36,549 bases of DNA from Cyclobacteriaceae bacterium (GCA_013140555.1 JABFSO010000454.1:1-36549); one strand, 5' to 3'. Shown: positions 19,128-36,318, counted from the first letter of the stretch. Made by a program: numbers and translations. Notes: generated by a model from the sequence alone, not told the origin.

Positions 19128-21317
19128 ATGTCACTATTCAAACATATTCGCTATACCTTGCTTTCAGTATGGTTTTACGCCCCAGGTGTAATCACCATCT
19201 TCATTGGCTATTTTCTTCTCACAAAACTCACACAAGGTCAAGATGTGGTAATGTTGGTAGGCGAAGCCAAGTTACCCGTACTCTTCACTGCGGTTGGAGT
19301 AATTCTATGGGCCTTCTTTGTTTGGTACTGCAGTCGATTGATTGGCTATGAGAAAAGATTTAATGACGTTAACTGGCCACTCGATTACTTATCATTATTC
19401 CCCCGACTATTAGCCTACAACACATTTGTTGTTGTACAAACGGCCATTATTGCTTTGCCTACAGTAGGCAGTGATAACAGTTATTTGTTATGGGCATTTG
19501 TCTTTCTTCAAAATGCCTATTATTTTATCTTACAAAAGGCAATTAAAACAAAAGATAAAGTGGCTACCATAGCAGCGCTTTTCATTGCTGCCTTATATAC
19601 CGGGTATCTGGTATTTCTTTATCTCCGAAATCAAGATGGAGAGGCACATGAATATCATTTGCCATGGATGGCACTTCTTTTATTTGGCTTGCAAATCCTA
19701 GTGCTTTATTTTTTCATTCTACGCAGAGTTAAAATAGATCAAAATGCCGGGCACGGTTATCCAGATGATGCCATCGACTATGTATCCATTGGCTCCATTA
19801 AAGTAATAAAAGTACCAGCATGGCTTAAAGCGCAAGAAAAAAACACCTTCCTCATCTTCAATATAATTTCGGGCCTAGCCATCGCCTTGTATTTTGTGGT
19901 GCTTAACAGTGTTTGGGTAGCGTCTCAATTAGGACCATTGCCTGTGGTGCTATTGGCCTTTGGAATTTTAGCCGGATTAGCCACCATCATCACATACCTC
20001 TCGATGCGAGTAAAATTCAACCTCTTCTTTGTATTACTGGTAATCGCCATTGTTGTAGGGAATTTATTTGATCCTTATTCAGTAAAGCTTACCAAAGCTA
20101 AGAAACCATTTGTGCATCAACAACGGCCTTCCTTAGAAGCCTACCTCGCAAAATGGATACAACATCGAAAAGCAAAAATGATAAACAATGATTCGTTAAA
20201 CCCCTATCGTGTTTATCTGGTGCTGGCAGATGGAGGCGCTTCGCGTTCAGGCTATTGGGCAGCCAGCGTCTTAGCCGCCATTCAACAACAGTCATTGAGC
20301 GATTCGGCTACCAATGAAACATTCAACGATCATTTACTGGCACTCTCGGGTGCTTCCGGTGGCAGCGTGGGCAATGCAGTGTTCTACAGTTTGCTGAAAA
20401 AAGAGCAGCACGATCCTAACATCCTCCAACACGCTCGTGAATTCTTAGGCCACGATTTTCTTACCTATACCATTGCGCATTATCTCGGCTCTGATTTAGC
20501 AGGCCATTTTATACCCGGCTTGCGCGACCGCGCTACTGCCCTTAGCAACAGCATGGATTACTGGTCTACCGGTGCGAGCGATGTATTTAAAAAAGAGGTA
20601 GATGAAGCCTTCGACCAGAGCGGCCGCCTGCCCATACTTTTTATCAATACCACTCGAGTGCAAGAAGGCACTCCGGCTGTGGTGAGTTCGATAAGACTCG
20701 ATAGTGTAAGCAATCGTCTGGACGTGCTCAGCTTAATCGATTCAACGTACGCCCAAGGTAAGGGAAACATACAGCTAAGCACGGCTGCTGTATTGGGTGC
20801 ACGCTTCCCATACGTATCGCCTGCAGGAGGTATATCATATGAAGCAAAAGAAAAAGAGCCAAATCATTCTTTTGTGGATGGTGGCTATTTCGATAACAGT
20901 GGTGGTGGCATTATCCATGAGATGATGCAACGAATCGAGAAAATTCAAAACGATACTACAAATAGTCTTTCAAAGGATTTGAAAAGAATGAGGTTCTACC
21001 TGATTCATCTTACCAACACTCCGGATAGCGATGGCAATCTCAATCCAATTCACCCGCTTACCAACGATTTGGCAGCACCACTGTTAACGGTGTTCAATAC
21101 CTACGGCTCGCAAACAACGGTAAACGACAAACGACTGGAAACTTTCATGACACGATTTTGCAACTGCACCACTGCCAACAAAGAAATAAATCTCTATCGC
21201 ACCAAAAAAAATGAAAGCTATCCAATGAATTGGGTAATCAGTCAATACCGCAAAGATTTGATGGATGCACGGGTAGATGAGGTGATTCAAGAAGAGTTAA
21301 AGAACGGTTTAAAATAA
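19128..21317 (+). CDS. integral-membrane patatin-like phospholipase
   Basis: Multiple N-terminal TM segments; patatin motifs DGGASRSGYWAA, LSGASGGSVGNAV (GxSxG), VDGGYFDNSGGG (Asp). Confidence 0.85.
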   Translation: MSLFKHIRYTLLSVWFYAPGVITIFIGYFLLTKLTQGQDVVMLVGEAKLPVLFTAVGVILWAFFVWYCSRLIGYEKRFNDVNWPLDYLSLFPRLLAYNTFVVVQTAIIALPTVGSDNSYLLWAFVFLQNAYYFILQKAIKTKDKVATIAALFIAALYTGYLVFLYLRNQDGEAHEYHLPWMALLLFGLQILVLYFFILRRVKIDQNAGHGYPDDAIDYVSIGSIKVIKVPAWLKAQEKNTFLIFNIISGLAIALYFVVLNSVWVASQLGPLPVVLLAFGILAGLATIITYLSMRVKFNLFFVLLVIAIVVGNLFDPYSVKLTKAKKPFVHQQRPSLEAYLAKWIQHRKAKMINNDSLNPYRVYLVLADGGASRSGYWAASVLAAIQQQSLSDSATNETFNDHLLALSGASGGSVGNAVFYSLLKKEQHDPNILQHAREFLGHDFLTYTIAHYLGSDLAGHFIPGLRDRATALSNSMDYWSTGASDVFKKEVDEAFDQSGRLPILFINTTRVQEGTPAVVSSIRLDSVSNRLDVLSLIDSTYAQGKGNIQLSTAAVLGARFPYVSPAGGISYEAKEKEPNHSFVDGGYFDNSGGGIIHEMMQRIEKIQNDTTNSLSKDLKRMRFYLIHLTNTPDSDGNLNPIHPLTNDLAAPLLTVFNTYGSQTTVNDKRLETFMTRFCNCTTANKEINLYRTKKNESYPMNWVISQYRKDLMDARVDEVIQEELKNGLK

Positions 21318-21371
21318 TAGACGGAGTAAGCCGAAAATCCGCAGAAGAGTAGGCGAAAGATATTAATACCC

Positions 21372-22412
21372 ATGGCATACTACCCATCTCTACGCGACTA
21401 CCAAACAAAAAGCGAACGTGTTCGCATCATTGAAAACATCCAACGCCTCAAGCAAGCCCTTACGGAGCAAGTGCCAAAGAAAAATCTGGAAGAAAATCTT
21501 TTGATCGCCACGTGGAATATTCGGGAGTTGGGCAAAAACGATAAAGCTGTTCGATTGCGCGAAACGCTTTTTTACATGGCCGAGATTATCTCTTCGTACG
21601 ATTTAGTAGCGATACAGGAAGTGGGCGAAGACTTGAAAGATCTGAAAGATCTCGTCAAGATTTTGGGACCGGAATGGGATTACCTCGTTACAGACATCAC
21701 CGAAGGAGCATCGGGCAATGGCGAGCGACTGGCCTTTGTCTTTGATTCGCGAAAAGTAATCTTCAGAAAAGTAGTAGGTGAAATTGTGCTCCCGGATGCA
21801 AAGGGAGAGTCCTCAAAGCAAATCGCGCGCACACCTTTCATTGTGGCGTTTCAATCCGGATGGTTCAAGTTTTACATTACTACCGTGCATATCTATTACG
21901 GTAAGGAAAGCAAGTCGTCCCCAGAATACAAAAGACGCGTAAAGGAAATCAGCAATGTCGCTTCCTTTCTTAAAAAGCGCACACTCAAAGAAAAGGAGAA
22001 TCACATTATTCTTGGTGACTTCAACATCACAGGCCGTGATACAAATGACGCTACATTCCAGGCGCTTGTTAAAGGCGGATTCAAAATACCACCTACACTA
22101 CTCGCATTAGGTGCTGCGAATACCAATGCCGATGGCACGATGCCGTATGACCAAATTGCCTACATCGATCAACCCGGCTACATGGAGTTTCACAATAGCT
22201 CCAACAGCGTAGGCGTATTCGACTTTTTCAAATACATTTTTCGAAAAGAAGATGAAGCTGCCTTTGAAAGCGAGCAGAAGAAATCAAAACTGACTTACAA
22301 GCAATGGAAAACCTTCCAGATGTCCGACCACCTTCCTCTATGGATTGAATTCAAAGTCGATTTCTCTGAGGCATATCTCAATAAGCTTAAAACAGAAGAG
22401 TATAAAAAATAA
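21372..22412 (+). CDS. endonuclease/exonuclease/phosphatase (EEP, DNase I-like) family protein
   Basis: ATWNIRELG, DLVAIQEVGED, HIILGDFNITGRD, QMSDHLPLWIEF. Confidence 0.88.
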   Translation: MAYYPSLRDYQTKSERVRIIENIQRLKQALTEQVPKKNLEENLLIATWNIRELGKNDKAVRLRETLFYMAEIISSYDLVAIQEVGEDLKDLKDLVKILGPEWDYLVTDITEGASGNGERLAFVFDSRKVIFRKVVGEIVLPDAKGESSKQIARTPFIVAFQSGWFKFYITTVHIYYGKESKSSPEYKRRVKEISNVASFLKKRTLKEKENHIILGDFNITGRDTNDATFQALVKGGFKIPPTLLALGAANTNADGTMPYDQIAYIDQPGYMEFHNSSNSVGVFDFFKYIFRKEDEAAFESEQKKSKLTYKQWKTFQMSDHLPLWIEFKVDFSEAYLNKLKTEEYKK

Positions 22413-22420
22413 AAAGGAAC

Positions 22421-24655
22421 ATGGATCCAAAAAACTTATTAAAACATCTGGGCGACAAAACGCTTCCCACCAAACTGGGTGAATACAAGTTTGAACAGAA
22501 GTTAATCGATGTTCCTTCTGGTGAAGACAAAGTGCAGTTTGCCTTTGGCATAGAAGCCAAGCCCGAAGCGTTTCTGTTCAATGACGCCAATGACTTTGAC
22601 CCCAAGAATCCGGACGATGTGCTCGGTCCCAGCTCCCTCATCGCTTTTACTCCCGGCAGTGCCTGGCTGAAATATTCTGCGTTGGCAGGAATCAAAACAG
22701 AATCCGGAATAGAAGTAGAGCAACTCGGATTCAACTTTGGTGGAAAAGGTTCTGTGATCTCCACAAGCTATAGCAAACATGGCCTCACCGAAACCGTAAA
22801 AGCTGCCATTGCTCATGATGTTACACACTTCAAATCTATTTTTGATCGCGATCAGATCAAGTCACTGGAAGCTGATGAAGCCGTTACATTCACTCTTAAG
22901 GGAAAGCTGGAAGCGTCCGTCAAACTAAAATGGTCGGATACATTTTCAGGCAGTCTTTCTGCGCTGGGTGAGTTGATCAATCAAAATCAATTATTCAAAA
23001 TAGAAGTAGGAGCCGAAGCATTTGCTTCCTATAAGATTACCGTTACCGATGATTTCACTGCCAAAATTATATGCAAACAAAAAGGCCAATACGGCATTTA
23101 CATCTCGAAAAGTATTTGCACCAATCAGGTAGGCTCAGTGGGCGCCAAAGTAGGTGCCGAATTTGAGAACAAAGCAGATATCGCCAAAGCCGTAGGCCAT
23201 TTGATCGAAGGATATTTTGGCATGGCTGAAAACGAAATTGAAGCTTTAGTAGCGAAAGCGGAAGACGCCATCACGGATACAGAGAAAAAAGCGCTGCAAG
23301 CAATAGGAGAAAATTTAGGCTGGGTAGAAGAAAAATTTGACTTGGTCAAGAAACTCAAGAAAGAATATGAAAACCTAAAAAAGAAAATTGGCGAAAAGAT
23401 TGAAGAATGGGCAACCATCAAAGTATCCGTTGCATTTACCTACGACTATAACCGCATCAGCACACGCGCTACTTTATTGGAAGCCGAAACCAATGACGCT
23501 GGCATCGATCGCTTTCACGTTCCAATTCTAAAGATGAATGCTGATGAACTCATCAAATCGTACCAGGCGGGTGAAAAAATATTATCCAGTGTAAAATATA
23601 ACAAAACCGATGTGAACGAAGTGATACGCTCCACCGGTTTTTCCATTGGCATCGGCAAATGGACTGCCGGCAGCAGCAAAAAAATTGCTGTCGAAACAGA
23701 AGAGCAAGAAGATCAATTCGGCTACAAGAAAATCAGCTACCAAGGGAATCGGTACTATGGCGAAGAGGCGTTCGGAGATGGTGTCAACTGGAAGATTGAC
23801 TTAAACGCACAAATGAGTGCCTTCTCACAAAACAAAGTTCCGTTTGCCAACGAATTTGACTACGGATTTTACGTGGGCTACGAATGGAAAGAGAACAAAC
23901 TCAATTTCAATGAGTGTGCGCACTTCACCGATCTGGTTGCCATTTGGGGAATTATTCCTATAGAAAAAATAGAGAGCGAAGCACAACGCCTGGCAGACGA
24001 GTTAAAAACGCGGAGAGACATAAAACTCTCTTGCGAAATAAAAGTGAAGTCCGAAGCTTTCGAAATGATTTTACCTGCGCTGGCAAAAAGCAGCAAGCGA
24101 CAAGATATTATTGCGTTGGCCCTTGGCAAATCCATGCCACGGTGGGGCGACTACAAAACACGGAAAGACATCGCGCTGCGGACGCAGGTGTATGCAGCTT
24201 TGTGGAAGTCGTACCTCTCCGAGCTTGACGATCCGCATCCTACTACGCAGCTCTATGCAGATGAAGCGTATCGTACGCTGCGCTCGAGTGATAAAGAATT
24301 GGCCGAAGCAGAATTGAATTATAAAGAAGGTGTATTTAAACCGTACTCGTTCGGCTCGACAATTAACGTAAACAAAAACACCTATTTGGCTGCGCAAAAG
24401 TTAGGCGATGGGTTTTCTCTCTTGGCATCGGGCAACGATTCGCGCTCATCGCTGGCGCATAACAAAGTGATCCCTTCGGCATTTGACAACATTGAAGATT
24501 TCTGGCGGTTTCCGCATCATATCAAAACACTGGGCACATTGCTCGCGCTCGTGCTAGATGGCTACCCTACTTTAAAACCTTTTGTAGATCGCACCGCCAG
24601 CATTCAATACAAAAATGAACAAGGAAAAGAAATGGTGATAGTTATTGGGAGGTGA
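22421..24655 (+). CDS. large hypothetical protein (744 aa), no recognised domain
   Basis: Long ORF 9 nt after the EEP gene; beta-rich halves around a central coiled-coil-like KKLKKEYENLKKKIGEKIEEW. Confidence 0.8.
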   Translation: MDPKNLLKHLGDKTLPTKLGEYKFEQKLIDVPSGEDKVQFAFGIEAKPEAFLFNDANDFDPKNPDDVLGPSSLIAFTPGSAWLKYSALAGIKTESGIEVEQLGFNFGGKGSVISTSYSKHGLTETVKAAIAHDVTHFKSIFDRDQIKSLEADEAVTFTLKGKLEASVKLKWSDTFSGSLSALGELINQNQLFKIEVGAEAFASYKITVTDDFTAKIICKQKGQYGIYISKSICTNQVGSVGAKVGAEFENKADIAKAVGHLIEGYFGMAENEIEALVAKAEDAITDTEKKALQAIGENLGWVEEKFDLVKKLKKEYENLKKKIGEKIEEWATIKVSVAFTYDYNRISTRATLLEAETNDAGIDRFHVPILKMNADELIKSYQAGEKILSSVKYNKTDVNEVIRSTGFSIGIGKWTAGSSKKIAVETEEQEDQFGYKKISYQGNRYYGEEAFGDGVNWKIDLNAQMSAFSQNKVPFANEFDYGFYVGYEWKENKLNFNECAHFTDLVAIWGIIPIEKIESEAQRLADELKTRRDIKLSCEIKVKSEAFEMILPALAKSSKRQDIIALALGKSMPRWGDYKTRKDIALRTQVYAALWKSYLSELDDPHPTTQLYADEAYRTLRSSDKELAEAELNYKEGVFKPYSFGSTINVNKNTYLAAQKLGDGFSLLASGNDSRSSLAHNKVIPSAFDNIEDFWRFPHHIKTLGTLLALVLDGYPTLKPFVDRTASIQYKNEQGKEMVIVIGR

Positions 24656-27715: not shown

Positions 27716-30481
27716 ATGAACGATAGCCCCAGTCAGTTCAACGAAGCGCAAACCCGCTACAACCTCATCGATCCGGTGTTGGCCAAAGCGGGCTGGAATC
27801 TATCCGACCGCACACAAGTATGGTTTGAGGTTCCCGTGGACGGATATGATGCATCACCCCAAAATGGCATTACCGATTATTGTTTGTACCGAACCAATGG
27901 AGAGGTGCTCGCTGTCATTGAAGCTAAGAAAACCAAACGCGATGCCCGTGTAGGGAAGGAGCAGGTGCTTCAATATGTAACACGCATCGAAAAAAAGCAA
28001 AGCTTTCGGCCGTTCGCCTTCATGGCTAACGGTGAAGATATTTTCTTTTGGGACACCGAACAATATCCGGAACGATTGGTGGCCGGGTTCTTCACACGCG
28101 CTGATTTAGAGCGTCTCCTGCATCTCAAGCTAAACAAACTACCACTCAATGAAATTAAAATCAATGAAAAGATCGTAAACCGATCGTATCAAACAGAAGC
28201 CATTCGAAGAATCGGTGAGACCATTGAGAAAAGAAAAAAACGCAAGGCACTTTTGGTGATGGCCACAGGCACCGGAAAAACGCGTACCACCATGGCTCTC
28301 ATTGATGTATTCCTTCGCGCACGGCAAGCTCAAAAAGTATTATTCCTGGCAGATCGCGATAGCCTGGTAGATCAGGCTCTCACCGATGGCTTCAAAGTTT
28401 TTCTTCCCAACGAAGCGCGCACGCGCATTCGCAGTTATGAAATTGACAAGACAGCCCGCGTATATGTGAGTACATTGCAAACACTCGAGATTTGTTACAA
28501 CCAGTTTTCACCCGCTGAGTTTGATTTGATTGTGACAGACGAATGTCATCGCAGCATTTACAACAAGTTTACCGATGTGCTGGCATACTTCGATGCCGTG
28601 CAAATCGGTCTCACCGCCACACCCGCCCATTTTATCGATCGCGATACCTTCAAGTTTTTTGAAACCGATGGCACTGCACCTTCCTTTTTATACACCTACG
28701 ATCAGGCCGTAAAAGAAGGATATCTGGCCGATTACAATGTGTATGCGGCACAAACCAAATTTCAACGCAAGGGTATCAGAGGCATCGACCTCAGTGAAGA
28801 AGATCAGGAGCGCCTGCGCGAACGCGGTATCGATCCGGAATCGATCAACTTTGAAGGCACAGATCTCGAAAGAAAAGTAACTAATCAGGATACCCTCTTT
28901 AAGCAGTGGGACGAACTCATGGGCATGTTGCACCGCGATGCCTCCGGGCAGTTGCCGGCCAAAACCATTGTATTTGCCATCACCCAAAAACATGCGTTGC
29001 GACTCGAAGAAGCCTTTAATGAAATGTATCCCGAACACCGGGGCCAGATGGCGCGCGTAATTACTTCCGGTGTAGAGCGATCCAAAGACTTGCTAACTAA
29101 ATTTAAGAAAGAAGATTTGCCACGCATTGCCATCTCGGTAGATATGCTCGATACAGGTGTGGATGTTCCCGAAATCATGAACCTAGCGTTTATGAAACCC
29201 GTGGGCTCGCAAATCAAATTCTGGCAGATGATTGGCCGCGGCACCCGCCCGCTGGAAGCCTGTACGCATCTAGATTGGTTACCCGACAAAAAGAAAGACA
29301 ATTTTCTGATTGTAGACTTCTGGGAAAACTTTGAGCACTTCAACATGATGCCCAAAGAAGAAAATGGCGCTCGCCAAATACCTGTGTTGGTAACGATTTT
29401 TAATACACGGTTAGCTAAACTCGAACTATTAATTCACGATCAAACTGCAGCCGACTTTCAAGCCATTATTCAAAACTGCCGCGATGCCATTGCACGCATC
29501 CCCATGGATTCTTTTACAGTGAAGAAAAATCTGAAAGACATCCGTGAAGTGTGGACAGATGATTTCTGGCAATACCTCACTCCGCAAAAAATTGAACTGC
29601 TGCGAATGAAAGTAGCACCCTTACTCCGTTTTGTGACTGATGTAAATCTGGATGAAGCCTTCTTCACCAGCAAGATGGAGCGCGTGAGTCTCGCCCTCTT
29701 GCAAAAGAAAGATACAACCGCATTGATTGCATCGATCCGAGAAGATGTAAGCCTTTTGCCCTCGAACATTGCACAAGTGCAGGAAAACATGCTGCTAAAA
29801 GAGGCCGTACTGGCGAATAAATTTTGGGAAGAAACTTCCCTACCTAAAATTGAAGCAGCACGTGCAGCACTGGCGCCACTGATGAAGTACAAGCGTGAGA
29901 AACCTTCGATGGTTGTTGAGCTTGGGTTAGACGATGTGATTGAATCGCGCAAGTGGGTGGTGGTGCGCAAGGACGGGCAAAAAATAATGGTAGAAGAATA
30001 CCGTAAGAGAATTGAAGAAAAGATAGAACAACTGGCCGCACAACACCCTACCATCAAACGACTGCAACAAGGCGAAGCCGTAAAGATGGAAGATTTACTG
30101 CAACTGGAACAAACCTTAGAAACCGAATTGAACAGCGATGCACTCAATCTGAATGACGACAACATGCTGAAGGCATTTGGTGTGCGGGTAGGTAGCCTTA
30201 CCGACTTCCTAAAACATGTGCTCAACTTGGAAGCTCTACCTAGTTACGAACAAATAGTGCGCAAAGCATTTGACGCATTTATCCTCGAGCATAACTACAA
30301 TGCCGACCAAACTCGTTTCTTGCGCACCGTGCAAAATGTTTTCTTACAAAAGCGTAGATTGGAAGAAGCGGATTTGTATGAAGCTCCATTTACGAATTTT
30401 GGTAGTAATGCGGTGGAGAAATATTTTACGCAAGAGGAAGTAGAGGAATTGATTGAGTTGACAAGAAAATTAGCAGCTTAA
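27716..30481 (+). CDS. hsdR: Type I restriction endonuclease R subunit
   Basis: Nuclease-like GITDYCLY...VLAVIEAKK; helicase motifs VMATGTGKTRTT, VTDECHRS, GLTATP, QMIGRGTRP; type I context with hsdM and hsdS. Confidence 0.95.
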   Translation: MNDSPSQFNEAQTRYNLIDPVLAKAGWNLSDRTQVWFEVPVDGYDASPQNGITDYCLYRTNGEVLAVIEAKKTKRDARVGKEQVLQYVTRIEKKQSFRPFAFMANGEDIFFWDTEQYPERLVAGFFTRADLERLLHLKLNKLPLNEIKINEKIVNRSYQTEAIRRIGETIEKRKKRKALLVMATGTGKTRTTMALIDVFLRARQAQKVLFLADRDSLVDQALTDGFKVFLPNEARTRIRSYEIDKTARVYVSTLQTLEICYNQFSPAEFDLIVTDECHRSIYNKFTDVLAYFDAVQIGLTATPAHFIDRDTFKFFETDGTAPSFLYTYDQAVKEGYLADYNVYAAQTKFQRKGIRGIDLSEEDQERLRERGIDPESINFEGTDLERKVTNQDTLFKQWDELMGMLHRDASGQLPAKTIVFAITQKHALRLEEAFNEMYPEHRGQMARVITSGVERSKDLLTKFKKEDLPRIAISVDMLDTGVDVPEIMNLAFMKPVGSQIKFWQMIGRGTRPLEACTHLDWLPDKKKDNFLIVDFWENFEHFNMMPKEENGARQIPVLVTIFNTRLAKLELLIHDQTAADFQAIIQNCRDAIARIPMDSFTVKKNLKDIREVWTDDFWQYLTPQKIELLRMKVAPLLRFVTDVNLDEAFFTSKMERVSLALLQKKDTTALIASIREDVSLLPSNIAQVQENMLLKEAVLANKFWEETSLPKIEAARAALAPLMKYKREKPSMVVELGLDDVIESRKWVVVRKDGQKIMVEEYRKRIEEKIEQLAAQHPTIKRLQQGEAVKMEDLLQLEQTLETELNSDALNLNDDNMLKAFGVRVGSLTDFLKHVLNLEALPSYEQIVRKAFDAFILEHNYNADQTRFLRTVQNVFLQKRRLEEADLYEAPFTNFGSNAVEKYFTQEEVEELIELTRKLAA

Positions 30482-30499: not shown

Positions 30500-31942
30500 A
30501 TGGATGTAAAAGATTATGTCGTGAATATTGGACCTCAAGGAACTTTCAAACCTTCAGGCTCCTATCAATCAACTCCAGTTGATATTGATGAAATGTTTCA
30601 AAAGTTTGACGCAGAAAATATCAGGCGAATTACACTCTATTTTCATGGTGGACTTGTAAACGAAAAGGTTGGTACGGAAACTGCCATTAAAATGGAAAAG
30701 CATTTAAGTAGCATCAACCAACGACCAATATGTTTTGTTTGGGAAACAGGTTTAATGGAAACCGTTTCTTCAAACCTTGGAAAAATTTCTGAAACAAAAC
30801 TCTTTGAAAAATTGATAAAAATTTTGACGAAGAAACTTGCTTCAAAATTAGGTTTTGATATTGCGGAAGGCAGAGGTGCTGGAGTTTCATTGTCGGATGT
30901 CCAAGTAGATATTGAATTAAGCAAAAGGATTCCTTTTGAAAACTACACACAAAACATTCTTGAATCAAAAGGACGAGGAGCAGATGCAACTTTAAGCCTT
31001 CCTTCAAAACCAGAAGATTTAGAAGGTGAATTTAAGTTTGAAATTGAAGCCGATTTTGAGCTTATATCGATTCTTGCTGAGTCAAAAATTACTATTTCAA
31101 ATACATCTGTTGGACAGTCAAGAGGAATAATTGATACTGCTTTACTAATTAAGAGTGTTGCAAAAATTGCATTTCGGGTAATAAAAAGATTTGTCATTAA
31201 ACGAGATCATGATTTCTATCCAACAATCATCGAAGAGCTATTGAGGGAACTATATATTGCTGAGTTGGGCGCCTGGGTATGGAACAATATGAAAACAAAA
31301 TCAAATGATATGTGGAGTGATAATTCCGGCCTATCAGGAGTTAATCAATTTGCAGGCAGATATTTGTTTGATAAATTGGTTAGTTATCACAAAAAGTATC
31401 CTGAGATACAAGTTAATCTAGTGGGGCATAGCGCAGGCTCTATTGCAATCTGTAATTTACTTAAAATGAGCGCTGAGACCTATCCGCAACTAGTTTTTGA
31501 AAACATCATTTTTATGGCTCCGGCTTGCAGAATTGATCTATTCAGGAATGAAATGGTTTCACACCAAAATAGATTTAAAAGTTTTAGAATGTTTACAATG
31601 ACTGATGAAAATGAGAAGCACGATATACTTGTTCCTTATCTTTATACTCATTCATTATTGTATTTAATATCAGGCGTTTTAGAAGATGAGGGGAAAGATT
31701 ATGACTCATATATTTTAGGACTAGAAAGACACATTAAAGCTTCACCGCCTTACGATCACGTGCGGGAAATCATAGAAACAAATAAATTTATCTACGAAGC
31801 CGGTAAGAACAGAGTGGCGTTTTCCCAAACAGGTAGTAATGCACAGATCGGGTTAAGAACGCAATCGTTATCGCATGGTCGTTTTGACGATGACGATGAA
31901 TCTGGTGGAACAATTGAAAGTATAAAACATATGCTCAAATAA
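30500..31942 (+). CDS. alpha/beta-hydrolase-like protein
   Basis: ITLYFHGGLVNEK oxyanion-type loop; nucleophile elbow VNLVGHSAGSIAICNLL. Confidence 0.75.
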   Translation: MDVKDYVVNIGPQGTFKPSGSYQSTPVDIDEMFQKFDAENIRRITLYFHGGLVNEKVGTETAIKMEKHLSSINQRPICFVWETGLMETVSSNLGKISETKLFEKLIKILTKKLASKLGFDIAEGRGAGVSLSDVQVDIELSKRIPFENYTQNILESKGRGADATLSLPSKPEDLEGEFKFEIEADFELISILAESKITISNTSVGQSRGIIDTALLIKSVAKIAFRVIKRFVIKRDHDFYPTIIEELLRELYIAELGAWVWNNMKTKSNDMWSDNSGLSGVNQFAGRYLFDKLVSYHKKYPEIQVNLVGHSAGSIAICNLLKMSAETYPQLVFENIIFMAPACRIDLFRNEMVSHQNRFKSFRMFTMTDENEKHDILVPYLYTHSLLYLISGVLEDEGKDYDSYILGLERHIKASPPYDHVREIIETNKFIYEAGKNRVAFSQTGSNAQIGLRTQSLSHGRFDDDDESGGTIESIKHMLK

Positions 31943-32956
31943 ATGAAAGAAGATTTTGCAATAATTATTGGTATTAACGACTACACCCCACCTAATCAAT
32001 TAGGTTTAAAAACTCTGCAAGGTGCTGTCAATGACGCAAATCAAGTTGAAGCTTGGGTTTCAAGTCCTACTGGAGGAAATGTGCCAGCGGCTAACATCAA
32101 AAAAATTATCTCAACTCCAGCCCCACTAAAGCCTGTGCAAGACGAAATTGATGAGGCCTTTCTTGGAATTCGAGCATTAATACTTTCAAAAGGTGGTTTT
32201 GCAAGACGATTATATTTTTATTTCGCTGGTCATGGACTCGGCATTATTAACAGTACAGTTGACACCGCTCTTTGCCTTGCTAAATGGTCGGAAGAGAGAA
32301 GACAATCTGCATTATCTTCTGAATTGTATAAAGATTACATAAAACAATATGGCTACTTTGAGGAAATTATTTTCATTGCCGATTGTTGCCGCAATACCAA
32401 AATTAGCATAACTCCTCAGCCACCAACATTTAGAAGCCCCATCCCTGGTCAAGGAGCTGGGCAAACTAAAATGTTCGTGGCTTACGCAACTCAATATCAA
32501 GATCAATCTTTTGAAGTTGAATCAATTCATTCGGAAATGAGAGGGGCATTTACATCTGTATTACTTGATGGACTAAAAGGTGCGGCAGCTAATAACGGGT
32601 CAATAGGTGCAGACGATTTGCGGGACTATCTATACAAGAAAACTCCTGAGATAGCGATTATTCAGGGGTATAAGCAAATACCCGATATTTCGCACTCTTT
32701 TGCAAATAACTTTTCATTAGTTACAGTCCCAATAAGTAATACCAATGTGACTTTCACATTTAGCGCTACAAGAAATAACCTTATAGAGTTAAGCGATGGA
32801 AATTTAAATGTTCTTGAAACATTTGATGGCAGTAAAAACAAAAGCTTTTCAAAGCAACTATCAAAAGGACTTTATATGTTAAGTGATACAATTACAGGAG
32901 ACACTATATCGTTCCCGGTTTCACCAACTCAAAACAATACTCATGTCAACTTCTGA
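31943..32956 (+). CDS. caspase-like (C14/metacaspase family) protease with C-terminal beta-rich domain
   Basis: FAIIIGINDYTP, LKTLQGAVNDANQVEAW, His motif YFYFAGHGLG, Cys motif IFIADCCRN. Confidence 0.88.
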   Translation: MKEDFAIIIGINDYTPPNQLGLKTLQGAVNDANQVEAWVSSPTGGNVPAANIKKIISTPAPLKPVQDEIDEAFLGIRALILSKGGFARRLYFYFAGHGLGIINSTVDTALCLAKWSEERRQSALSSELYKDYIKQYGYFEEIIFIADCCRNTKISITPQPPTFRSPIPGQGAGQTKMFVAYATQYQDQSFEVESIHSEMRGAFTSVLLDGLKGAAANNGSIGADDLRDYLYKKTPEIAIIQGYKQIPDISHSFANNFSLVTVPISNTNVTFTFSATRNNLIELSDGNLNVLETFDGSKNKSFSKQLSKGLYMLSDTITGDTISFPVSPTQNNTHVNF

Positions 32957-34577
32957 CTCACCAACAAAATTTATACTCAGAGCAATGGTTGCGAATGAGT
33001 ATAAATATCTCGTAAGCATTTTTCTTTTTGATTCAACTAACAGAATTATTTCGCCAATTGAAAAATCAAGAGATCAATACAAGTATCAATTAAAAAAAGG
33101 GCTTTACACATTAAGGGTTGAAATGAACGCTGGAATCACCGACAAGGTAATAACAGTTAACACAAACAAAGCCTATTGGATAACAAGTGATTTGTCTCAA
33201 GCTCCTCTATCAGATATAATTCAACCGCCACAACAGTTTTCTTCTGCTTTATTGAGTGGTGCCAGAACTGAAACCTATCTTTCTTCGCATGAGTACTACA
33301 CCCATCCTGCAATAAAGTTAAGTAAAAGGAATACTTTTATTTACAATCAAGTTCAAACCAAGAAGCTTAATTCTTCTCTGTTCATTTTCCTGCGTTTTCC
33401 TTCAATTGATAAATATAATAGCTTAAGAAGTAAATGGGCTAAATCCTTTTATAAGTACTTTGAAATAGTAAACGAATATGGAGAACTCTTGCTTTCATTT
33501 GATTCAAAAAGTGGACTTCAGGTAAATGAAAATGACGGTTGGTTAGCGTTTAATGCCCAGTTGCCGCATGGAATCTATTATTTGATCTATCGTGGAAGTG
33601 AACCAAGGCAAATTCCCATCTATGTTTTTAATAATTGGCACACTCAATTTTTTATGACATTGGGTGAAGTTCCGCTTTTTGGAACTACAAGGATTTTTAT
33701 GTCTGCTAAGAGGGAGTTCAATCCAAAAGCTGAGGCGAATAAATATATTGACATTTTGTTAGACAAACTTCAAAATGGAGATTACTCTGTTGATGAAGAA
33801 CTTATTGAAATAGCTGCTTACGGAAAGTATAGGTCACCAATGCTAGGGCTAATTTGTTCGTATGTTTATTTTAAAAGCCGTCAAACAAAAAGTGACGATC
33901 TATTTAGAATCATAACTCAAAATATGCAGCGTGTTATACTAAAGGACAATGATGAATCCCCCGACCTAAGAGCATTAAGCATTCTTGCGGCTGAACATTT
34001 TGACAAAACAAATTATAGAAAGACAGCCATTAAGGGAACACCTATGTTGCGAATAGGTCTTGAAGCAATTAAAAACGCGTCTCTCAAAAACCGAGCGCTA
34101 ATTCCAAAAAACAGTATTAATGATTTTATTTCGGAAACACTTTACTATGACTCTCCTTTTAACACGTTCAAGCCAATTCCTGTTTATAAAAGGCCAAAAA
34201 GCAGTTTGGCGTCAGAGAAAAATATGAATGAAATTGCATTCGACATTCATTCTGAATCCCGATTTTTGATAGATATGAACGAAGGAGGAGTAGAAAAAGA
34301 ACCTAAAGAGTTAGAACCGAAGATTGATAAATTTTCACTTAACATTAATGGTTATTTAGAACCGAATCTTATAAGCTTTATTAAAAGTTCTGAAACAAAT
34401 TCCGAAGCGGAAAGAAATTGGGTTCGGACTTCTATCTCTGGTTTACTAAGCAAAAATGAAAATCTTAGTATCAATGATATTTCAAACCAATTGAATTTAT
34501 CTGGTAACACAATTACAAGAATATTTGATGATTGGGGTAAGAAAATCAAAATAGAAAAGAAAAAAAAGGGAAGGTAA
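32943..34577 (+). CDS. hypothetical protein with N-terminal beta-sandwich-like repeats and C-terminal HTH-like segment
   Basis: ORF opens at 32883; ATG at 32943 (MSTSDSPTKF) overlaps the caspase stop by 14 nt. C-terminal SKNENLSINDISNQLNLSGNTITRIFDDWGKKIKIEKKKKG resembles a helix-turn-helix. Confidence 0.75.
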   Translation: MSTSDSPTKFILRAMVANEYKYLVSIFLFDSTNRIISPIEKSRDQYKYQLKKGLYTLRVEMNAGITDKVITVNTNKAYWITSDLSQAPLSDIIQPPQQFSSALLSGARTETYLSSHEYYTHPAIKLSKRNTFIYNQVQTKKLNSSLFIFLRFPSIDKYNSLRSKWAKSFYKYFEIVNEYGELLLSFDSKSGLQVNENDGWLAFNAQLPHGIYYLIYRGSEPRQIPIYVFNNWHTQFFMTLGEVPLFGTTRIFMSAKREFNPKAEANKYIDILLDKLQNGDYSVDEELIEIAAYGKYRSPMLGLICSYVYFKSRQTKSDDLFRIITQNMQRVILKDNDESPDLRALSILAAEHFDKTNYRKTAIKGTPMLRIGLEAIKNASLKNRALIPKNSINDFISETLYYDSPFNTFKPIPVYKRPKSSLASEKNMNEIAFDIHSESRFLIDMNEGGVEKEPKELEPKIDKFSLNINGYLEPNLISFIKSSETNSEAERNWVRTSISGLLSKNENLSINDISNQLNLSGNTITRIFDDWGKKIKIEKKKKGR

Positions 34578-34658: not shown

Positions 34659-34772
34659 ATGCTCACCTCCACCTCTCCAAAATCCCAAGTCGATTCTCTC
34701 TGGTCACGTTTTTGGCTTGCCAGCCGAAGCGTGAGCGAAGAATATAAAAATAAATTTATCTATGCTTACTGA
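34659..34772 (+). pseudogene. truncated duplicate of the hsdM 5' end (37-codon ORF)
   Basis: MLTSTSPKSQVDSLWSRFWLASRSVSEEYKNKFIYAY* versus HsdM MLTDASLKSKVDSLWSRFW...; 19-nt identical block at 34687-34705 and 34790-34808; stop lies inside the hsdM start region. Confidence 0.85.
34721..34740. repeat. copy 1 of short imperfect-palindrome repeat
   Basis: cagccgaagcgtgagcgaag, 18/20 identical to the copy at 34943. Confidence 0.7.
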
Positions 34773-36318
34773 TGCTAGTCTCAAGTCAAAAGTCGATTCT
34801 CTCTGGTCCAGATTCTGGTCCGGTGGCATCAGCAATCCCCTCACCGCCATCGAGCAGATGAGTTACCTTATCTTCCTTAAGCGATTGGAAGATATTGATA
34901 ATGCCAAAGCGGCAGCTGTGAAAAGAAGGAAAGCAAGCTCGTCAGCCGAAGCTTCAGCGAAGGCTGAATTCAAATCATTGTTCAGCGGCAAAATGGATGT
35001 GGGTGGTCGCAAGATCGACAAAGAAAAATGCCGCTGGAGTTACTGGAGTCAGCTGTCGGGTGATGAGATGCTGCGCCACGTGCGCGATGTGGTTTTTGAA
35101 TTTCTGCGCAACCTCGGCAGCGAAACCAGCTCGTTCACCCAACACATGGAAGATGCCATGTTCAGCATCCCCAAGGCTTCGCTCTTACAAGAAGCGGTGA
35201 AGATCATTGACGATATGCACATCAGCGAACAGAACATCGATGTGCAGGGCGATCTCTACGAATATTTATTAGGTCAACTGAGCACAGCCGGCAAGAACGG
35301 CCAGTTCCGCACTCCGCGCCACATCATCCGCATGTTGGCGAAGCTGATGGACCCACAACCGCGTGAGCGCGTCTGCGATCCCGCAGCAGGCACGGCCGGT
35401 TTTCTGGTGGCTGCCTATGAACACATGCTGGAGACCAACACCTCCAAAGACATTCTCACCTACGATGAGGAAGGCAAAGCCCACAACCTGATTGGCGACA
35501 AGATTGATCCGAAGCTGCACAAGTTTTTAAAGAGCCAGGCGCTCTCCGGCTATGACTTCGATGCCACCATGGTGCGCATGGGTGCCATGAACCTGATGCT
35601 GCACGGAGTAGACAACCCCAACTTCCGCTATGCCGATGCGCTGAGCAAACAGTTTAACGAGCGGCAATGCTACGATGTGATTCTCGCCAACCCGCCCTTC
35701 AAAGGCAGCATAGACGAGAGCGACATCAACCCGCGCTTTGGCGTGAAAACCAAAAAGACTGAGCTCCTTTTTATCGAACTCATTTACGGTTTGCTCGAAA
35801 GCGGTGGCCGCGCTGCCGTGATTGTACCCGATGGCGTTTTGTTTGGCACCAGCAACGCCCACCAGGATGTGCGCAAAATTCTCGTGGACAAATGTACGCT
35901 CGATGGCATTGTGTCCATGCCCTCGGGTGTGTTCAAACCGTATGCAGGGGTGAGCACAGCCGTGCTGCTCTTTACCAAAGCTGTGCCGGAGAAAGAGTAT
36001 GATGTATGGTTTTACGACATGCAGGCCGATGGCTTCTCGCTAGACGACAAACGCCAGAAGATTGCCGACAACGACATACCCGATGTGTTGAAAGAGTGGA
36101 CGGCACGCAAGACCAAACAGAAAAGCAAGAGCAAGAAAGTAGTGTGGGTAAACACCAAAGACATCCGCGCCAACAAATACGATCTAAGCATCTCGCGCTA
36201 CAAACCGGTAGAGCACAAAGCCGTGAACTATGAAAAGCCCGAAGTGCTTATGGATAAAGTGATGATGTTGGAAGAGGAGATTGTGGAGTATATGAAGAAT
36301 ATCAAGAAAAAGATTTGA
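34762..36318 (+). CDS. hsdM: Type I restriction-modification N6-adenine methyltransferase M subunit
   Basis: DPAAGTAGFLVAAYEHM, VILANPPFKGS, N-terminal helical domain SLWSRFWSGGISNPLTAIEQMSYLIFLKRLED. Confidence 0.96.
   Translation: MLTDASLKSKVDSLWSRFWSGGISNPLTAIEQMSYLIFLKRLEDIDNAKAAAVKRRKASSSAEASAKAEFKSLFSGKMDVGGRKIDKEKCRWSYWSQLSGDEMLRHVRDVVFEFLRNLGSETSSFTQHMEDAMFSIPKASLLQEAVKIIDDMHISEQNIDVQGDLYEYLLGQLSTAGKNGQFRTPRHIIRMLAKLMDPQPRERVCDPAAGTAGFLVAAYEHMLETNTSKDILTYDEEGKAHNLIGDKIDPKLHKFLKSQALSGYDFDATMVRMGAMNLMLHGVDNPNFRYADALSKQFNERQCYDVILANPPFKGSIDESDINPRFGVKTKKTELLFIELIYGLLESGGRAAVIVPDGVLFGTSNAHQDVRKILVDKCTLDGIVSMPSGVFKPYAGVSTAVLLFTKAVPEKEYDVWFYDMQADGFSLDDKRQKIADNDIPDVLKEWTARKTKQKSKSKKVVWVNTKDIRANKYDLSISRYKPVEHKAVNYEKPEVLMDKVMMLEEEIVEYMKNIKKKI
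34943..34966. repeat. copy 2 of short imperfect-palindrome repeat, in frame inside hsdM
   Basis: cagccgaagcttcagcgaaggctg: terminal cagcc/ggctg inverted ends, internal gaagcttc palindrome; encodes SAEASAKAE. Confidence 0.7.

Follow-up and report, generated by a model that had tools for sequence, protein, structure and literature searches.

What are three genes doing between the restriction and the modification subunit genes of a type I restriction-modification (RM) operon? The question is raised by a contig of a Cyclobacteriaceae bacterium (GCA_013140555.1, JABFSO010000454.1:1-36549), which was analysed over its whole length of 36,549 nucleotides and is referred to here as the window; it is contig C371 in an assembly of 498 contigs. 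The genes encode an alpha/beta hydrolase (HYD), a caspase-like peptidase (CASP) and a third protein (THIRD), all on the plus strand. The obtained results indicate that HYD-CASP-THIRD is a stand-alone, conserved and horizontally moving three-gene unit, for which the position between hsdR and hsdM is a landing site and no part of the mechanism. From sequences and predicted structures, we infer that CASP probably activates HYD by cutting it at two basic sites.

HYD (30500..31942, 480 aa, ATG start) is a predicted caspase-activated pro-enzyme, and its stop codon abuts the start of CASP (31943..32956, 337 aa), a metacaspase/paracaspase-like peptidase of clan CD, C14 (Peptidase_C14 1.9e-11). THIRD (32943..34577, 544 aa), the predicted scaffold or sensor and partner of CASP, overlaps the 3' end of the CASP gene by 14 nt. 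Its ATG at 32943 was taken as the start, the longer open reading frame (ORF) beginning with GTG at 32883 being a mechanical call. The Pfam scan identified HYD as a sub-threshold DUF900 alpha/beta hydrolase and gave a weak helix-turn-helix (HTH) match for THIRD. The only CASP relative in the source genome was the copy in the window. The initial annotation had placed five genes in strict succession (hsdR-HYD-CASP-THIRD-hsdM) with coordinates that all hold, and the motifs it listed were present as described, namely GHSAGS with Ser311, AGHG with His97 and DCC with Cys149.

When 84,980 genomes were scanned with a HYD alignment, 80 loci were obtained. The three genes occurred together at 71 of these, and in the order HYD-CASP-THIRD at 70 of the 71; at L098 the order was CASP-THIRD-HYD. 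The nine exceptions comprised five HYDs lacking a caspase gene (caspase orphans), two contigs that end early, one locus with a CASP fragment, and L107 (9839-11948), where CASP turns into a transposase-like ORF soon after its start and HYD is open with both basic sites, an apparent natural CASP knock-out. According to the record titles, the hosts belong to about a dozen phyla, including Bacteroidota, Pseudomonadota, Acidobacteriota, Verrucomicrobiota, Planctomycetota, Armatimonadota, Chlorobi, Chloroflexota, Deinococcota and Calditrichota, as well as Streptomyces and others. The copy in Chitinophaga pinensis (L094, 1383-4743) carries many frameshifts, which probably reflect either assembly errors or decay.

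The gene arrangement was similarly conserved. The gap between HYD and CASP did not exceed 15 nt in 57 of 73 trio members, and the CASP and THIRD genes overlapped in 63/70, by exactly 14 nt in 26/70, where single values may be off because some of the starts in other genomes were chosen automatically. CASP and THIRD are a single fused gene in Runella, Stenotrophomonas and a Chlorobiales metagenome-assembled genome. The three protein trees agreed with one another, with Mantel r values of 0.92, 0.89 and 0.86 against a permutation maximum of 0.18, although these correlations are inflated by shared vertical descent. Trio copies are also carried by rhizobial plasmids, and in an IMG/VR contig (L192, 4331-14850) the trio lies right after two phage integrases and ahead of a YqaJ recombinase; it is therefore probably cargo of a prophage or island there. 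The phage and E. coli collections that were searched gave zero matches. The recurrence, the gene overlap, the agreement of the trees and the CASP-THIRD fusions bear out the proposal that the three genes act as one functional unit, and the gene-neighbourhood check proposed in the initial annotation shows co-occurrence in dozens of genomes, which excludes chance.

The predicted catalytic set of HYD consists of an H49-G-G oxyanion hole, S311 in GHSAGS, D369 or E372 as the acid, and H459. These residues were near-invariant across the 73 trio members (S311 72/73, H459 73/73, E372 73/73, H49 71/73). The AlphaFold2 model of HYD was obtained with a mean pLDDT of 90.4 and a pTM of 0.91, and its fold matches, all weak, were to lipases and to the DDHD/NirD domain of Nir2; lipid hydrolysis is therefore a guess with some support. 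Searched by sequence, each alone, neither HYD nor CASP had a relative of solved structure. The trio HYDs contain an insert of ~150 aa without a counterpart in those HYD relatives that carry a fused papain or amidase domain, where the match jumps from ~95 to ~269 in profile numbering or from ~113 to ~245 in query numbering. Such insert-less cores were seen in single proteins that combine amidase, HYD and caspase, or papain and HYD, at L024-L026 (Hymenobacter-type), L008 and planctomycete loci. The HYD core is thus often coupled to a cysteine peptidase.

Within the insert lie two candidate cleavage sites, R125 (codon 30872..30874; EGR|GAG) and R208 (codon 31121..31123; QSR|GII), each the predicted P1 residue; residues 126-208 (30875..31123) form the segment between them. 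Among the 73 HYDs, position 125 is Arg in 55 and Lys in 16 (71/73 basic, nine changes on the tree), and position 208 is Arg in 54 and Lys in 19 (73/73 basic, eight changes between Arg and Lys). At both sites the P1' residue is Gly, Ala or Ser (Thr in three HYDs at site 1) and the residues before are mostly small, while the surrounding sequence is poorly conserved. Among 421 columns, these two were the only charged ones that had changed at least eight times on the tree yet held at most four residue types; of the other columns with this behaviour, most were hydrophobic and a few were small or hydroxyl-bearing. The site loops are modelled with low confidence (121-130 mean pLDDT 59; 202-209 below 50) and, with 156-164 between them, are among the few places in the HYD model predicted to be disordered.

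The signal at site 2 was also found independently of the alignment at that site: the motif occurred at the expected distance from the invariant R230 in 71/73 HYDs, compared with a mean of 15 and a maximum of 30 after shuffling, a procedure that ignores the relatedness of the sequences. The Arg/Lys signal was present in every broad taxon. Outside the 73, both sites were present in all four additional HYDs with a CASP gene (L098, L155, L192 and L107, the last with CASP interrupted) and in the HYD of L102, where the contig ends. Of the five caspase orphans, L089 has lost site 2 and none of the other four has the two sites together in canonical form; a CASP profile search of the orphan genomes gave zero matches, and a search of 449 genomes for further orphans as controls found none beyond those known. 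The pattern at R125 and R208 is that expected of a doubly cut pro-enzyme, and a protease that seems to co-evolve with an enzyme bearing insertions with putative cleavage sites is the general signature of a pro-enzyme pair. Autocleavage sites were also sought in CASP and THIRD, where no conserved basic position mixed Arg and Lys.

CASP has the residues needed for such a role. Its dyad is H97/C149, its S1-pocket acids are D31 and D147, and a C-terminal beta-sandwich spans about residues 265-328. H97, C149 and D147 were conserved in 73/73 members and D31 in 72/73, the exception being a gap. Profile matches were to metacaspases (2.9e-7) and MALT1 (2.4e-4). The counterparts of D31 and D147 in TbMCA2 are Asp95 and Asp211, the second pair being matched by its location two residues ahead of the catalytic Cys; in TbMCA2, an Arg/Lys-specific metacaspase, these two acids line the proposed S1 pocket. 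CASP is therefore inferred to be a metacaspase-type protease that would cut after Arg or Lys.

Taken together, these observations suggest a mechanism in which THIRD would bind CASP and hold it off until a trigger arrives. Active CASP would then cleave HYD behind R125 and R208; both residues sit in predicted disordered loops of the branch-specific insert, and the double cut would free the hydrolase core. The freed core would most likely attack membrane lipids, and this would arrest or kill the infected or stressed cell. That CASP cuts HYD after both residues is, in our judgement, likely, whereas the whole chain, from THIRD-controlled CASP to an activated, membrane-directed hydrolase, is favoured only slightly over its failing at some step. 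The idea in the initial annotation that the caspase activates the hydrolase is thus probably correct.

Cleavage sites alone give no direction, and CASP could instead switch HYD off or set free the intervening segment as a signal, with CASP itself or an effector fused to THIRD as the killer; some THIRD proteins do bear nuclease domains of their own. Against this, the catalytic residues of HYD are near-invariant and its insert-less cousins keep the hydrolase core, which suggests that the core is functional without the insert. Such an inactivating or signalling cut is unlikely, and we retain the activating direction as the preferred reading.

Several observations weigh against caspase activation of a lipase-like HYD in defence. 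Among the caspase orphans, L111 has KG near site 2 and L113 has G-x-K-A near site 1, and the orphans number only five and are partly related. No PDB entry matched the HYD fold at E<=0.001, and the likeness to lipases is weak. Most neighbours of the trio are housekeeping genes; of the 78 that were sampled, with a simple ORF criterion prone to error at high GC content, only about three resemble genuine defence genes, and the defence-island signal is therefore weak. JetA, PD-T7-1 and PD-T7-5 are the matches that look real, by E-value alone, while ten PADLOC matches among the 78 that were examined more closely included UvrB, Pif1 and OmpA lookalikes. Finally, the strictness of Arg/Lys at the two sites could have a structural cause. 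R125 and R208 would then be structural or ligand-binding residues and CASP would have its substrates elsewhere, a reading to which the small number of orphans and the conservation of R230 and R249, which are no candidate cut sites, lend some weight. It is improbable given that both residues lie in predicted disordered loops and tolerate Lys, that the P1' residues are small, and that the motif is similar at the two sites. Cleavage at R125 and R208 accordingly remains our preferred explanation of the pattern.

The AlphaFold2 model of THIRD (mean pLDDT 87.6) comprises two N-terminal beta-sandwiches, a helical domain, a disordered linker (about 420-460) and a short HTH-like helical C-terminus. The first sandwich resembles the C-terminal domain of CASP, on moderate evidence (hhalign E 1.6e-4, probability 50%), and the protein resembles Ig-like and gingipain domains. 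DNA binding is a candidate role of the tail, for which the HTH matches are weak, and conservation across the trio members revealed no catalytic set in THIRD. The match to a gingipain C-terminal domain was considered as a type IX secretion signal and rejected; it was taken as a resemblance in fold because the trio occurs in phyla that are not known to have a type IX secretion system. In some bacteria THIRD is extended at its C-terminus by trypsin and PLD, by trypsin and Endonuclease_NS, by pYEATS, or by an amidase, a papain and a second HYD-like core, which suits a scaffold that carries effectors. A scaffold or sensor, as the initial annotation had it, is probably what THIRD is. The fusion to trypsin and a PLD nuclease was seen in Mesorhizobium (L031, 10525-15905), where an additional trypsin gene lies 3', and that to trypsin and Endonuclease_NS in Rhizobium gallicum (L032, 10469-14224).

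Type I RM operons can embed effectors such as PrrC, and the trio shares with PrrC-type operons its nesting among hsd genes. In the window, hsdR (27716..30481, plus strand) encodes an EcoAI/EcoEI-like type I restriction subunit R (Pfam ResIII 5.2e-38, EcoEI_R_C 5.3e-19; PADLOC REase_I 5e-148) and hsdM (34762..36318, plus strand) a type I methyltransferase (N6_Mtase 3.2e-62, HsdM_N 4.3e-17); hsdS starts from about 36320, 3' of hsdM, and is cut by the contig end. These hsd genes are the host operon and lie outside the trio. From this nesting, it had been proposed that the trio guards the RM system, so that the caspase would be released when the type I enzyme is lost or inhibited. The genes are indeed on the same strand and HYD begins 18 nt past the hsdR stop, so co-transcription is likely. 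However, when the fetched trio loci, a set without the viral contig L192, were searched in all six frames, the window was the only one to contain a relative of hsdR or hsdM. The recurrent co-occurrence expected of an RM operon component was thus not seen, and the trio differs from PrrC-type operons in standing without hsd genes wherever else it was sought. In addition, of six relatives with a similar hsdR, four have hsdM directly adjoining it and two hold one unrelated gene each in between (L185, 4281-4628; L187, 4286-5772). The hsdR-hsdM junction may therefore be a general landing site.

The window itself retains traces of the event. The trio has a GC content of 34-38%, compared with 46% for hsdR and 51% for hsdM, and between THIRD and the intact hsdM sits a decayed hsdM 5' end (34659..34773, plus strand), which reads MLTSTSPKSQVDSLWSRFW... 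followed by a stop, overlaps the intact hsdM start and looks like a scar left by the insertion. The AT-rich trio, the hsdM remnant and the closed junction in most relatives show that the nesting arose by insertion, and the proposed guard of the RM enzyme, very improbable on these grounds, was abandoned. Three consecutive genes elsewhere in the window (19128-24655) encode a protein of 729 aa with a weak likeness to patatin, an Exo_endo_phos protein, and one of 744 aa that has no Pfam match.

That proteolysis activates a dormant killer enzyme is central to animal immunity; in bacteria this was shown only recently, for nucleases. Here, a single alignment points to the protease, its likely specificity, its substrate and both bonds that it would cut, and the proposal can therefore be tested with two point mutants. 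It would also explain what the hydrolase-caspase pairing, noted in genomes since 2020, could be for; the pair is seen here as a compact and transferable three-gene unit that occurs on plasmids, on an integrase-bearing viral contig and across about a dozen phyla. At its broadest, the trio would be a widespread system for immunity or cell death: under the control of an Ig/HTH scaffold, a metacaspase would cut a gating segment out of a lipase-like pro-enzyme at two Arg/Lys sites. This would be the first bacterial caspase-activated lipase partnership, a non-nuclease class. We regard this as a real possibility, held a little less firmly than an even chance.

The initial annotation knew of no described system with this architecture, which proved too strong: Kaur et al. 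2020 (PMC7159879) recorded that whenever a VMAP conflict system includes a caspase domain, an alpha/beta-hydrolase is encoded next to it. A literature search, mostly outside subscription journals, found no papers on the HYD-CASP-THIRD trio. The VMAP ternary and GAP1-N1 systems share with the trio a caspase with a neighbouring hydrolase, likened by description, and modular effector fusions; they differ in that the trio has no VMAP-C, MoxR or vWA component, has a stand-alone third protein, and is also present in many bacteria for which multicellularity is not known. Membership in the VMAP ternary systems was rejected, since VMAP, MoxR and vWA genes were not found among the scanned window genes or the listed neighbour families. 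In a looser tie, the trio would be a satellite of a VMAP/GAP1-type NTPase conflict network and would depend on an NTPase switch (MoxR-vWA, STAND or GTPase) whose gene lies elsewhere. The hydrolase neighbour found whenever a VMAP system has a caspase, the related hydrolase in GAP1-N1 systems (PMC7159879) and the C-terminal effector domains gained by THIRD, as in VMAP/GAP1-type systems, would agree with such a tie. It is nevertheless doubtful: VMAP-C, MoxR and vWA were absent from the scanned window genes and the best-represented families of the 78 sampled neighbours, a VMAP-C match was missing from 7/15 trio records, and neither HYD nor CASP was present at 17 VMAP loci (PF20028) from trio-bearing genomes. 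The EACC1-caspase systems of Kaur et al. 2020 likewise combine a caspase with variable C-terminal domains; CASP was not assigned to them, as it scored 46.5 bits against the NF047832 cut-off of 140 and has no 5' EACC1 membrane gene as a neighbour.

The closest comparison for a trio acting through activation of HYD is Canu (KaeCanABC; Tuck et al. 2025, PMC12799240), whose caspase activates a pro-nuclease that carries two insertions. Both consist of three genes, and both have an effector enzyme with two insertions holding predicted cleavage sites, a caspase with a C-terminal Ig-like domain (the beta-sandwich part of CASP on moderate evidence) and a partner protein, CanB being complexed with the caspase in Canu and a THIRD-CASP complex being predicted here. 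The effector is an alpha/beta hydrolase in the trio and a nuclease of the MBL fold in Canu, and the scanned window genes held no MBL-fold domain. Furthermore, the predicted P1 residues of HYD are Arg/Lys, as opposed to conserved glycines in CanC, and defence is a putative function in the trio. The hydrolase-caspase pairing and the caspase-gated nuclease had already been described; the insert with two near-invariant basic sites in HYD is new. Tuck et al. 2025 (PMC12799240) proposed that other classes of gated enzymes may exist and could be found through co-evolution and active-site-blocking insertions, and of these features the trio shows co-evolution and a site-bearing insertion. By analogy, HYD is best read as the putative lipase counterpart of the gated nuclease of Canu.

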